Shown in pieces: positions 2-51,856 of a DNA stretch of 64,000 nt (position 1 is its first letter; every line of letters begins with the position of its first letter). The position numbers and the translations under genes are program-made. The notes below the pieces were generated by a model. That model was not told the origin of the DNA, did not search any database, and was given only the letters and a program-made list of their open reading frames with translations. The stretch is from Humisphaera borealis (GTDB lineage: Bacteria; Planctomycetota; Phycisphaerae; Tepidisphaerales; Tepidisphaeraceae): positions 3,410,001-3,474,000 of the forward strand of contig NZ_CP063458.1 of NCBI RefSeq assembly GCF_015169395.1. Reading direction: 5' to 3'.

Positions 2-2731
2 AAGGCGCCAGTCCCGCGCACGCCGCCGCCCCCGCCGGCGCCACGGCAGGTCATCCAGCCGCAGCAGCCGCCACAAACCAAAAAGCCCGAGCCCGCCTAC
101 GTGGCCCCGGCCAGCTATCCGCCGACGTCGCAGCATCCGCCGGCCCAGGTCTACTTCGGACCGGCCGGCAAGGGCCGAAAGCAGAAGAAAAAGAGTGGCG
201 TAGGCGGCGCGCTGTTCGTGCTGCTGCTGCTGGCGCTGATCGCCGGCACCGGCGTTTTTGCGGTGCAGGAGGGTTGGCTGGCGCAGCTGCAGGCGTATCT
301 GACGAAGAACGACCCGCCTGCCACTCAACCGACCACACAGTCCGCCACACAGCCGACGACCCGGACGGCGTTGTGGGACCCGGCGACGCGGCCCGTCAGC
401 GCCGCCACGCAGGCGATCGCGAATGCGGCCACACAGTCGGTCGCAACGTCGCAACCCGCCGTCGCGACGACGCGCCCGACAATTCCGGCCACCCAACACT
501 TGGTGGCGACTACCCGACCCGTCGCGACACAGCCGGTCGTCATCGGCCCGGCCACCCGGCCGGAAAACCCGCTCGGCAAAACGCCTGACCTTGTCGCCAC
601 CCGACCCGCGACGACGCGCCCGATCGAGGTCGCCACCACCAAGCCCGTCGGCCCGGTCGTGAATCCGCTCGAGAACAAGAACCCACCGGACAAGCCGGTC
701 GTCGGCATGACGGCGTACGAGGTCTCGAAGAAGGCGATCGCCGATGACGTCCGCCAGGGCAATTGGAACTCGGCACTCACCCGCCTGGCCGAGCTGCGCC
801 GGCTCGCCGTGCTCGAAAGCAAAACCGCCGACTTCGCGACCTCCGCCGACAGCGTGCTGACGGCGTTCCGTGCCGACCAGTCGATCCTGAGCCTCCGCCG
901 CAAGAACTACCCCACGCTCGAAACGCTGATGCAGCCGGCGTTCGCCGAGGGGTCCAGCGTCGCGGCGCTGTTGATGGCGGAGTTCTGGCTCGACTACGAA
1001 GGTGCCGGGGCGACCAAGCGGCTGCGCGCCCTCGACGACACCAACGGTTTCGCCCAGGTCGTTCGCTTTCTCGAACAGGTCAAGCCCGCCAGCCCGCAGG
1101 CGGCCGAGGCGAAGAAATACCTGCACGATGCGCGCCTGCGACAGGTCGATCATCTGGCCGACAAGAAGAACTGGGCGGGCCTGGTCGCCTGGCTGTCGGA
1201 GATCCCGGTCGACGAACTGACCAAGATGCGCGACGCCGGCCAGAGCGCACCTTACGCTCAGGCGATGCAGACCGTCGGCGACCAGTTGCAGCGCCTCTGG
1301 ACCGAAAACAAGGACCTGGCCGAACGACAGCAGATCGTCCGCGACCCGCGACCGCTCGCCCCGTTCGCCAATGCCGGCAGCGTTCCGGCGGCCATCCTGC
1401 TGGCCGAATCGCTGCTGCGCTACCAGGGCGAAGGCCCTGCCCGGCGGATGGTCAGCACCGACGCCGAAGGCAGCTTCGCCCGCATTATCGAGCTCTGCGT
1501 CAAGGCACAGGCCAGCACCGACCCGGCGATTTCCGCCGCCGCGGGCGCTTATCTCTTCGACGCTTATGCCGCCTCAGTCGCCGATGCGGGTTTGAAGAAG
1601 AACTGGGCCACCGCCGTGGACAGCCTGGCCCGGGGCATCGTGCCGCTGACCGGCGATCAGCGGACGGCGTGGATGAAGCTTGCGGAAAAGACGCTGATGG
1701 ATTTCCGCGCCGACGCCGCCGACCTGGACAAACGCCGGGAGACCTACCCGGACCTGACGAACCAGCTCGAGCCCTTGGCTCTGGGCAAGGTGCATGCGGC
1801 GATGCTGGTGCAGTCGGAGCGGTACATGAGCTTCGACAAGGCGACACCACCGCGGGTATCGCCGGTGGCCGGCGATCCGGAGTTCCGGCTGACGCTGGAC
1901 CTGCTGTCGAAGGTGATCGAAGCCCCCGCCACGCCGGCCGATGTGCGGGCCGCCGCACTGGACCGCCAGTGGGACGTCTACGCCTACTACGCCCGCAAGT
2001 CGCTCGATGAGAAGCGCGCCGATCGCACGCTCGACAAGCTGAAGCTGGTCGCCAAGTGCGATGCGACCGAAACGCGTATCAGCGATTACGCCGCGCTGGT
2101 GGATGAAATCTGGCCGCCGAACGAACCGAAGGTGGCACCGCAGCGGGTCACGCTCGCCGAAGACCTGATGCAGATCAAGGAGAACGAACGCGGAACAAGG
2201 TCGGTCGGCGAGAAGCGGCCGGCGATCCTCGGCGGCATTCGCGCGCTGATGATGAAGACGCGCGACTCGGTCGATGCCAGGAGCCGGGCCCGCGCCAACG
2301 GCCTGCTCGGCGAAGTCACGCTCGCCACGCCGGGTGCCAAGGCCTCGGAGGCGTTCGCGTTCTTCAAGGACGGCTGCCGCGTCGAACGCCAGGGCGAACT
2401 GGCCGACCCGATCGCGCTGATGGGCCTGGCGCTGTTCTGGTCGCTGAACGATCAGGAACTGGCGCACGCCAACTACGCCGACCCGCTCTTCGAAGAGTTG
2501 CGACAGGTTCAGGCGCTCCAGCGGACGCTCAAGACGCTGGCCCTGTACCGCGAGGCGGCCCGATCCACCGACAAGTACGCCAACTTCCTAGCCGGGCAGT
2601 ACACCTGGCTGGCGTTGAAGCGTTCGCCGACCAACACGCAGCTGACCGAGACCTACCTCAAAGCCGCGATCGACCGCGGCCACGTGCGGGCCCGGGCGTA
2701 TCTCAACGTGGTGCGTTCGGGCGGGGAATGA
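2..2731 (+). CDS. Membrane-anchored repeat protein, N-terminus cut by window edge
   Basis: The frame is open to the first base of the window, so the true start lies upstream and only the C-terminal ~909 residues are seen. A Pro/Gln-rich, presumably cytoplasmic stretch and a basic KGRKQKKK patch precede one hydrophobic segment (about nt 206-268, LFVLLLLALIAGTGVF). After it comes a low-complexity Thr/Pro linker full of ATQP and ATRP units. The rest is helical and repeats a pattern of MAEFWLDYEG and AESLLRYQGEG type followed by R-x-x and RL residues, which resembles Sel1/TPR-like solenoids. The architecture (cytoplasmic part, one membrane span, Thr/Pro stalk, helical repeats) is common for planctomycete envelope or kinase-linked proteins, but the N-terminal domain is not visible. 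No function can be assigned. It is convergent with the next gene. Confidence 0.7.
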   Translation, partial: KAPVPRTPPPPPAPRQVIQPQQPPQTKKPEPAYVAPASYPPTSQHPPAQVYFGPAGKGRKQKKKSGVGGALFVLLLLALIAGTGVFAVQEGWLAQLQAYLTKNDPPATQPTTQSATQPTTRTALWDPATRPVSAATQAIANAATQSVATSQPAVATTRPTIPATQHLVATTRPVATQPVVIGPATRPENPLGKTPDLVATRPATTRPIEVATTKPVGPVVNPLENKNPPDKPVVGMTAYEVSKKAIADDVRQGNWNSALTRLAELRRLAVLESKTADFATSADSVLTAFRADQSILSLRRKNYPTLETLMQPAFAEGSSVAALLMAEFWLDYEGAGATKRLRALDDTNGFAQVVRFLEQVKPASPQAAEAKKYLHDARLRQVDHLADKKNWAGLVAWLSEIPVDELTKMRDAGQSAPYAQAMQTVGDQLQRLWTENKDLAERQQIVRDPRPLAPFANAGSVPAAILLAESLLRYQGEGPARRMVSTDAEGSFARIIELCVKAQASTDPAISAAAGAYLFDAYAASVADAGLKKNWATAVDSLARGIVPLTGDQRTAWMKLAEKTLMDFRADAADLDKRRETYPDLTNQLEPLALGKVHAAMLVQSERYMSFDKATPPRVSPVAGDPEFRLTLDLLSKVIEAPATPADVRAAALDRQWDVYAYYARKSLDEKRADRTLDKLKLVAKCDATETRISDYAALVDEIWPPNEPKVAPQRVTLAEDLMQIKENERGTRSVGEKRPAILGGIRALMMKTRDSVDARSRARANGLLGEVTLATPGAKASEAFAFFKDGCRVERQGELADPIALMGLALFWSLNDQELAHANYADPLFEELRQVQALQRTLKTLALYREAARSTDKYANFLAGQYTWLALKRSPTNTQLTETYLKAAIDRGHVRARAYLNVVRSGGE

Positions 2732-49624: not shown

Positions 49625-50254
49625 CTAAGCGGCTGACTCGACCTTCGCCTCTTCGCCCTTGCGATCGCGGGTGCTGGGCGCGCCGCGCAGGGTATAGACG
49701 AAGATCAGGCCGACGCCAACGCACAACAGCATGTCGGCGACGTTAAAGATCCATGGGAATATCTCGCGGCTCGTGCCAGGCCAGGTTCGGCCGGGAAGCG
49801 CATAGATCATGTCCCGCACGTAGCCGAAGGTGATGCGGTCGTACATGTTGCCGATGACGCCGGCTAACAGCATTCCGAGCACAAACTGGTAGAACCGATG
49901 ATTTCCGCTCGTCGCGAACAGGTAGCTGATGAAGCCGATCGCCAGCACGGAAACGGTTACGAAAAGCCACCGTTGCCCCTGGCCGATGCCAAAGACCGCA
50001 CCCTCGTTCACCATCGCCATGAAGTGAAGCCAACCCTCAGCGACAGGCACGATGATTGGGTTGTTGTTGGGACCGTGATCGACCTGATGCCGCGACGGCG
50101 TGACGGACGTATTGTGAATGACCCCGTAGGGTGCCAACTGCTGAAACGCCAGTTCCTTTGTCCACAGGTCGGCGCCCAGCCCCAGAATGAAAGTCATTCC
50201 GAAGGCGAGCAATGCCGGGGCGGAGCGAAAGTTACCAAGATCGGAACGGCTCAT
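49625..50254 (-). CDS. lspA: Lipoprotein signal peptidase II
   Basis: A 209-residue inner-membrane aspartic protease that removes signal peptides from prolipoproteins. Four hydrophobic spans are visible; catalytic Asp residues are D139 in GNMYDR and D174 in FNVADM, and MVNEGAVFG is the conserved NxGxxFG-type loop. The protein is ~40 residues longer than typical, mainly from an insert (residues ~42-70, VTPSRHQVDHGPNNNP) in the first periplasmic loop. It would process the lipoproteins encoded elsewhere in this window. lgt and lnt are not adjacent. Confidence 0.92.
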   Translation of the reverse strand: MSRSDLGNFRSAPALLAFGMTFILGLGADLWTKELAFQQLAPYGVIHNTSVTPSRHQVDHGPNNNPIIVPVAEGWLHFMAMVNEGAVFGIGQGQRWLFVTVSVLAIGFISYLFATSGNHRFYQFVLGMLLAGVIGNMYDRITFGYVRDMIYALPGRTWPGTSREIFPWIFNVADMLLCVGVGLIFVYTLRGAPSTRDRKGEEAKVESAA

Positions 50255-50389: not shown

Positions 50390-51394
50390 CTATCGCCGGA
50401 TCGGCCCCTTCTCCTGAAGACGGGCAAACTCGATCGAGAAACGGGCCCAGGGTTGGGCCTCGAGGCGGACCTTGCTGATGGGCTTGCCATTGCCCTCACA
50501 AACGCCGTAGCTGCCGTTCTGCACTTTGGCCAGGGCGTGGTTGATCTCGCGGAGAAGAACGCGGTCCTTCTCGACCAGGCCGAGCGTAAACTCCTGCTCG
50601 TAGTTGTCGGTGCCCATGTCGGCCATGTGAATCGGCAGGGTGGACAAGCCCGAATCGCCGGACTGCAGCGCTTCGCGTTCCATCGAGCTCATATCGCCGA
50701 CGAGTTCGCGCCGCTTGGCCAGCAGCAGATCGCGGAAGAACTCCAGTTCCTTGACGCTCAGACCCGCCTGGTTCTTTTTGGGCTTGCTGTCGCCTGAACT
50801 GTTGGCCTGCTCGAGAATGTTCATCGGGCGGAACGGTTCAGGCTTGGTTTCGATCCGGGGGGTCTTGTCCTTGGACTTGACGGCCGCGGGTGCTGCGACC
50901 GGGGGCTTGACCACCACAGGCGGCGAACCGGCGGGCCGGGCCGGCAGAATGATCGTCTTGACCGGAGGCATCACCATCTTGGCCTTGGCGGCAGACTTGG
51001 CCGGTGCCTTGGCGACGGGCTTATCGCCGGCCGGCTTGTCGGCTGCGACGGGCTTCGCTGCCGCCTGCGGGGCTTGCGGCGCGGCCTTGACGGCAGCGGG
51101 TTTTGCAACGACGGATTTGGCGGACGCCGGGGCGGCTGCTGCGGGCTTCACAGGACCCGATTTCGAAGGGGCCGACTTCGCCGCCGCCGGCTTTGCCGGG
51201 ACAGCCTTCACCGGGACAGTCTTCGCCGGGGCAGCCTTCACCGGGACCTGCTTGCCGTTAGCCGCCTTGGCCGCAACAGGCTTGGCACTCTTCGCGGGTT
51301 TCACGGGCCGACCATTGCGCGATGACGCTGAGGCCGTTGACGCTTTGGCAACGGGACCCTTCACGACGCTCTTCTTCGATGCGGTCTTGCCCAC
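50390..51394 (-). CDS. DksA/TraR-family protein with histone H1-like N-terminal tail
   Basis: A 334-residue protein. The C-terminal ~123 residues (from 212, LSVKELEFFRDLLLAKRREL) carry the DksA/TraR coiled coil and tip (MADMGTDNYEQEF) and the following YGVCEGNGKPISKVRLEAQPW. Relatives coordinate zinc with four cysteines; here only C299 remains and the second CxxC is FSIEF, so the zinc finger is degenerate. The first ~200 residues are Lys/Ala/Pro-rich, like eukaryotic histone H1 tails, predicted DNA- or RNAP-binding and disordered. The GTG at 51394 has aaaggag upstream. The role is probably transcription modulation, by analogy with DksA. Confidence 0.82.
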   Translation of the reverse strand: MGKTASKKSVVKGPVAKASTASASSRNGRPVKPAKSAKPVAAKAANGKQVPVKAAPAKTVPVKAVPAKPAAAKSAPSKSGPVKPAAAAPASAKSVVAKPAAVKAAPQAPQAAAKPVAADKPAGDKPVAKAPAKSAAKAKMVMPPVKTIILPARPAGSPPVVVKPPVAAPAAVKSKDKTPRIETKPEPFRPMNILEQANSSGDSKPKKNQAGLSVKELEFFRDLLLAKRRELVGDMSSMEREALQSGDSGLSTLPIHMADMGTDNYEQEFTLGLVEKDRVLLREINHALAKVQNGSYGVCEGNGKPISKVRLEAQPWARFSIEFARLQEKGPIRR

Positions 51395-51856
51395 GGTGGC
51401 CCCGCGCTCCTTTCGGACCAGCTTCCTTCCCCGTTTGGGAAAGAAGTTCCTCCAAGCGTTCGGCCGCCTAAATTGGTCGAGGGGCCGTTGTCTTCACGAC
51501 ACGCCGCTGTCATCGCGGCGACGCAATAAAAAGACGGGAAAACCCGACCCGAACACCCACTGACACCCTGCCGTAGCAGGCGGGAAGGCAAGGGGGAGTC
51601 GAGTCCTGCAAGAATAACGCCAAAGCGCAATTCCCGTCAAGCGAACCGGTTGACACGCCCCACCTTGTCACTAGATTTTCGCGTTGCTTGGCCGGCACCA
51701 ACGCGGATGAACCGGCCAGATCGGATCACTTGCCCGAGTTCACTGCGGTCGTGTAGGTCGATACGCCACCGACGACGTCCGATAATGACTTAAGCACAGA
51801 CCGCAGGGCCATGGCGTGACTCACCGCCTCGACTTGACCGAACGGACCGCAGCATT
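51395..51856. other. Divergent intergenic region, leader of pheT
   Basis: A 462-base gap. Besides the promoter at 51650-51677, a 7-bp stem with a ~16-base loop (tggccgg / ccggcca, about 51689-51719) lies in the pheT leader. No gene or T-box signature is evident. Confidence 0.5.
51650..51677 (+). promoter_or_regulatory. Candidate sigma-70 promoter of pheT
   Basis: TTGACA (51650-51655), a 16-base spacer and TAGATT (51672-51677). The -35 is a perfect consensus and the -10 matches four of six. It points to pheT, giving a ~170-base leader. Confidence 0.6.

Follow-up and report, generated by a model that had tools for sequence, protein, structure and literature searches.

A DksA-like protein with a basic, H1-like tail and a lost zinc finger in Humisphaera borealis and related planctomycetes

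In the Humisphaera borealis genome (G000; 7.19 Mb, one contig), only one full-length DksA-type factor was found. It is the standard DksA of its lineage and not a special redox-blind paralogue, because no second four-Cys DksA was found beside it and a single zinc-position Cys is the norm of its family. Its gene lies in the window, the 64,000-nucleotide stretch of DNA analyzed here, and encodes a DksA domain preceded by a long basic tail. The host setting is probably free of ppGpp, judged from the gene content and from the aligned contact residues. A widespread basic tail on a DksA that probably works without ppGpp is the part for which no description was found, and a possible mechanism is considered below.

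Results

The gene, its neighbors and its relatives

The features are listed in Table 1. The open reading frame was taken to be real because it has a Shine-Dalgarno-like site, has DksA matches in 59 of the 61 genomes searched (its own included) and is under purifying selection, strong in the domain (dN 0.075, dS 0.813, dN/dS about 0.09) and weaker in the tail (dN 0.487, dS 1.143, dN/dS about 0.43); these ratios come from one comparison only, L005 and L076 having yielded identical sequence. The two genomes with no match were 82% and 86% complete, and the sole match in one other genome (G031) was distant, with 29% identity. The closest named relatives included a Phycisphaerales MAG (89% identity) and a Humisphaera MAG (80%), in line with membership of the planctomycete class Phycisphaerae. 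PADLOC defence models gave no match, and a plasmid search with the DksA domain returned 163 records, each below 60% identity.

Table 1. Features of the tailed DksA-like gene, its surroundings and the short-tailed relatives (window positions)
Feature	Position	Strand	Remarks
Tailed DksA/TraR-family gene, putatively zinc-less	50390..51394	-	334 aa, GTG start
Shine-Dalgarno-like site AAAGGAG	51407..51413	-	12 nt upstream of the GTG start, read from sequence
N-terminal basic Lys/Ala/Pro tail and linker	50762..51394	-	residues 1-211, predicted disordered
DksA domain	50393..50761	-	residues 212-334 (approximate): two long helices (coiled coil), small hairpin, short helix, C-terminal helix
Coiled-coil tip HMADMGTD	50606..50629	-	residues 256-263
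C4 zinc finger remnant C299, N302, S320, F323	50426..50500	-	from alignment to E. coli DksA
lspA (signal peptidase II), directly downstream	49625..50254	-	PF01252 102.4 bits; start codon is the analyst's choice
22-residue-tail group (L113, L118, L122, L124, L126, L131, L132, L142, L144, L145, L148, L151, L153)			pattern like VAQKRKKxxRKKxSSTRTKK

The DksA domain and its tip

The AlphaFold model, built on a 44-sequence alignment, had a mean pLDDT of 72.9, and its coiled-coil tip was modeled with low confidence. Helices were predicted at residues 214-244, 263-293, 308-313 and 321-329, and the predicted fold is consistent with the architecture of the TraR/DksA superfamily (coiled coil, small globular domain, C-terminal helix). 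The top Foldseek match of the model was Pseudomonas aeruginosa DksA2 (4ijj, E 1.5e-7); further matches were E. coli DksA (7khi and 5vsw, both RNA polymerase complexes, and 1tjl) and Chlamydia trachomatis Dks (6ptg), the last being also the best sequence match among solved chains. For PF01258 (gathering score 24.9), the full protein scored 23.4 bits, the trimmed domain 25.1 and the genome search 27.3, and DksA_N was matched weakly by the domain. The best NCBIfam model was TIGR02890 yteA with 73.1 bits, below its cut-off of 134.4, and TIGR02420 dksA reached 54.1 bits, below its cut-off of 115.5. With family scores below the DksA equivalog cut-offs, the protein is therefore called DksA-like, within the TraR/DksA superfamily.

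The preliminary description had called the coiled-coil tip intact, and this holds for the subfamily only, because the tip is the HxADxGT variant common to the relatives and to Chlamydia Dks, and not the DxxDxA of E. coli. The H, A, D and G of the tip and its final D were invariant in the 44-sequence alignment, its AD aligned with the AD of 4ijj and of 6ptg, and D and G were each retained in 143 of the 148 distinct sequences with two or fewer Cys. Against E. coli, one motif Asp was aligned and the Ala position was Gly, in an alignment gapped beside the tip.

Loss of zinc cysteines and spread of the tail

Residues C114, C117, C135 and C138 of E. coli DksA (checked on NC_000913) align with C, N, S and F, which confirms the earlier view of a DksA homologue with a single zinc cysteine left out of four. 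The genome yielded no second DksA that was full-length and had four Cys, and a protein search returned this gene only.

Two further PF01258 matches were present in the genome, a finger-only 77-aa ORF (L001, 1423-1656, minus strand) and one within a 155-aa frame (L002, approximately 1501-1575, plus strand). Both carry a DksA-type C4 finger (CxxC...CxxC), and a coiled coil was recognized in neither, with 150 of 177 PF01258 candidates scored. The canonical DksA finger was thus found in this genome only separate from the coiled coil.

A survey of planctomycete DksA proteins for tail and Cys content had been proposed at the outset; it was run on Planctomycetota and both features proved usual in the class. 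It comprised 206 distinct DksA domains from 237 loci, sorted by kinship, and a tail was called basic when it had at least 20 aa and K+R minus D+E of at least 12%. All 24 distinct sequences of the gene's own family had one zinc-position Cys, and the basic tail was present in 18 of the 18 with a callable start (6 were uncallable). In the same class outside this family, two or fewer Cys were counted in 60 of 70 sequences, 46 of these 60 with a basic tail and 14 with none recognized. The remaining 10 had four Cys; 8 were tail-less, 1 was tailed and 1 uncallable, and several were distant paralogues. Every sequence of the named set had at most two Cys (59/59) and 54 of the 57 callable ones were tailed; this set is biased, being made up of the 80 most similar of 464, less any duplicates of sequences counted before. 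One member of the 59, L117, carries the title Candidatus Kuenenia and, if the label is right, falls outside the class. The rest of the phylum was sampled with one to few sequences per family, most hand-picked among the matches listed; here two or fewer Cys were found in 5 of 53 distinct sequences, three in 2 and four in 46, and a basic tail, mostly shorter than 70 aa, in 15 of 47 callable ones. In these sequences, Cys loss prevails in the class and is rare outside it, the class is also where the tail is most frequent, and each feature occurs without the other in places.

The tail and the loss of zinc ligands do not strictly go together, since the class has tail-less sequences with two or fewer Cys and two sequences outside it (L217 and L218, family f57) combine four Cys with basic tails of 191 and 238 residues. 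Family f30, with one Cys, has both tailed and tail-less members. Among 190 rows (the 206 distinct ones less 15 cut by contig ends or lacking a start and 1 too short), 119 showed both Cys loss and tail, 37 neither, 19 Cys loss without a tail and 15 a tail without Cys loss. A statistical link between the two was not shown on these rows by the sign test, which had no power because the tree has only two changes of Cys state; it retained the finger columns, favoring grouping by Cys, and the support for its large clade of 133 is 40.

The basic tail

Residues 1-211 consist of 24.6% A, 17.1% K and 16.1% P, with one aromatic residue, nearly no acidic residues, repeated PAK/PVK-like units and a net charge of +34. 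Block-mean pLDDT over residues 1-200 was 46-62 with no secondary structure in the AlphaFold model. The tail of about 200 Lys/Ala/Pro-rich residues described from the sequence was therefore borne out as H1-like, a likeness of composition only, as a Pfam search of the protein that admitted matches to E 1 gave no winged-helix H1 domain.

By one composition rule, such a basic stretch occurred in 1 of 46 greedily called window ORFs, namely this gene. Of 270 called neighboring ORFs at 50 relatives' loci, 8 were flagged, every one of them coinciding with the DksA match, and none of the other 262 was flagged; the greedy set includes some spurious ORFs, and DksA ORFs missed by the filter may remain. 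These counts indicate that the tail is more than chance.

Tail charge was positive in 134 and at least +8 in 116 of the 139 sequences with two or fewer Cys and a callable start. Tail lengths in sequences with two or fewer Cys ranged from 7 to 387 aa by automatic start calls, which are rough (the tails of L195 and L204 are probably over-long and that of L062 probably under-called), and the sequence varied widely with the charge retained. Charge that is kept under drifting sequence and length resembles what polyelectrolyte contact would look like. A group of 13 sequences, picked by tail length, has a 22-residue basic tail replacing the long one, with a mean identity of 65% in the tail versus 81% in the domain. 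The tail of this gene was 52% identical to the same-genus copy over aligned residues, with many indels, and its lysine content was below that of many relatives' tails; part of the tail may therefore be under weak selection. A search for a shared tail module elsewhere in the host genome matched the gene itself only (150 of 367 candidates scored, low complexity limiting the search). No description of a tailed planctomycete DksA was found in a literature search of titles and abstract beginnings.

The ppGpp setting

The RelA_SpoT synthetase domain (PF04607) was absent from the host genome in a profile search. It was also absent from 57 of the 61 genomes (found in 4) and from 230 of 244 phylum genomes (found in 14), a set overlapping with the 61, and among 14 controls it was detected in 11. 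Residues R91, L95, K98 and K139 of E. coli DksA, which we take to form ppGpp site 2, correspond to K, L, E and A here; L95 is kept and the change at R91 is conservative. The K98 position is E also in 31 of 58 relatives with three or four Cys, so that loss of K98 may characterize the subfamily instead of marking the loss of ppGpp. In beta-prime, N680 is replaced by A and K681 by Q. Across 29 aligned sequences, own included (a search of 31 genomes gave 30 loci, one of which was not recovered), K681 was K in none, N680 was retained in 16, D684 in 25 and D622 in all 29. The residues R362, R417, K615 and Y626, assigned to site 1 on the presumed residue roles in E. coli, are K, Y, P and A. Omega, found in 26 of the 31 genomes, starts MIEALK here, and the MAR start of E. 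coli was seen in 0 of 26 aligned sequences.

The lack of a detected synthetase domain and the replacement of many contact residues in DksA, beta-prime and omega make a ppGpp-free setting probable. One study reported no RSH in the PVC bacteria that it examined, one planctomycete among them (PMC3153485). Loss of ppGpp alone does not explain the tail, because the four-Cys, tail-less members of the phylum mostly lack the synthetase too.

TIGR00691 matched two short host-genome proteins, with no more than its first 77 positions in one and 61 in the other, a stretch that belongs to the N-terminal HD hydrolase part of SpoT/RelA. They are a 215-aa frame (L281) and a 193-aa frame (L282), both on the minus strand; one has a motif like HDxxED, presumably that of the hydrolase part, and the other seems degenerate. 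The host may thus have a small alarmone-hydrolase-like protein with no synthetase domain.

Discussion

DksA is the textbook partner of ppGpp. Most of these bacteria have no detected synthetase domain, and many contact residues are replaced, yet nearly all genomes searched have a DksA match, mostly tailed, which raises the directly testable question of how DksA acts without ppGpp and how its action is kept strong enough. The reading that we favor, at a probability of about one half, is a secondary-channel factor that needs neither ppGpp nor zinc and gains nonspecific nucleic-acid affinity from its disordered tail. The C-terminal domain would most likely enter the RNA polymerase secondary channel by its coiled coil and destabilize open complexes, as DksA does, with a globular domain held together without zinc and an action that dispenses with ppGpp. 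The disordered basic tail would most likely add nonspecific electrostatic affinity for promoter or nucleoid DNA, possibly also for rRNA or polyphosphate. It would concentrate the factor around transcription complexes, where ppGpp would otherwise make the factor act more strongly, and could in this way compensate for ppGpp. Secondary-channel binding and control of rRNA promoters would be expected of such a protein. The computed support consists of the predicted fold, the lost zinc ligands, the conservation of tip and tail charge, the lack of a detected synthetase and the replaced ppGpp contacts. A wider version, in which a free-living class has made its DksA self-sufficient and ppGpp-free, an H1-like DNA-tethering tail at or near RNA polymerase replacing the ppGpp- and zinc-dependent features, is a good deal more speculative and we hold it to be rather unlikely.

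Loss of the zinc finger is ordinary for this lineage and is already known in P. aeruginosa DksA2, in alphaproteobacteria and in Chlamydia. The protein is predicted to have a DksA fold like that of DksA2 (4ijj), and by analogy with the globular domain that DksA2 holds without zinc, absence of zinc is plausible here. DksA2 differs in having two cysteines, in aligning a lysine with both K98 and K139, and in its 136-residue solved chain, which has no long tail. The alphaproteobacterial RSP2654 and SMc00469 likewise have DksA-like function without a C4 zinc finger; they are proteobacterial and said to retain other functionally important features (PMC9239242). C. trachomatis Dks (6ptg) shares one finger Cys in the aligned stretch and the HxADxGT tip, and it too comes from a setting without ppGpp synthesis, its organism having no genes for it (PMC10995303). 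Unlike the present protein, it is a 132-residue chain without a long basic tail and belongs to an obligate intracellular organism. According to the same study, Chlamydia retains DksA without ppGpp synthesis genes and this DksA fails to complement an E. coli mutant (PMC10995303).

The cysteines of DksA have a redox role, and a zinc-less tailed DksA may be insensitive to redox state; in P. aeruginosa, zinc-less DksA2 was able to replace DksA1 in H2O2 tolerance (PMC9213440). The preliminary description had gone further, to a specialized redox-insensitive, DNA-tethered DksA working beside a normal redox-sensing one. The three missing zinc cysteines fit such a division of labor, as does the DksA1/DksA2 pair of P. 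aeruginosa, in which DksA2 is expressed only in zinc starvation alongside DksA1 (PMC9213440). However, the normal partner is already contradicted by the genome, where no full-length four-Cys DksA was found, and the single Cys is shared by the whole of the sampled family, the two findings that the preliminary description had itself named as refuting it; we regard this explanation as highly improbable, and the proposal of a special paralogue was given up.

DNA tethering by the tail may occur, as it fits the tail composition, the conserved charge and the precedent of AlgP and PhaF of Pseudomonas. These have disordered Lys/Ala/Pro tails, KPAA tails called H1-like (PMC9239181); there the tail is C-terminal and on other proteins, a likeness of composition with no homology claimed. 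AlgP also bears on a different role, since this H1-tailed protein associates with both DNA and polyphosphate granules (PMC9239181). The tail might accordingly bind RNA, ribosomes or polyphosphate, or aid solubility or localization, with the DksA domain acting ordinarily. Varying sequence and length with kept charge suit any polyanion partner, but the results favor no particular one, and the family of the host domain acts at promoters on DNA-bound RNA polymerase; we consider a role away from DNA somewhat unlikely. The tail could also be a functionless, neutral low-complexity sequence arisen by repeat slippage in a GC-rich gene, as its fast divergence, many indels and PAK/PVK-like units would allow. 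Against this stand the dN/dS of its codons in the one comparison made, its presence in every callable own-family sequence and in most class sequences with two or fewer Cys, the 22-aa version common to 13 sequences, the near absence of acidic residues and the lack of such a stretch in the other neighboring ORFs called, and neutrality of the tail therefore appears improbable.

An LspA homologue was present at 30 of 50 full-size named loci and at 44 of all 80, counted by presence at the locus; in Chlamydia, too, we take dksA to adjoin lspA.
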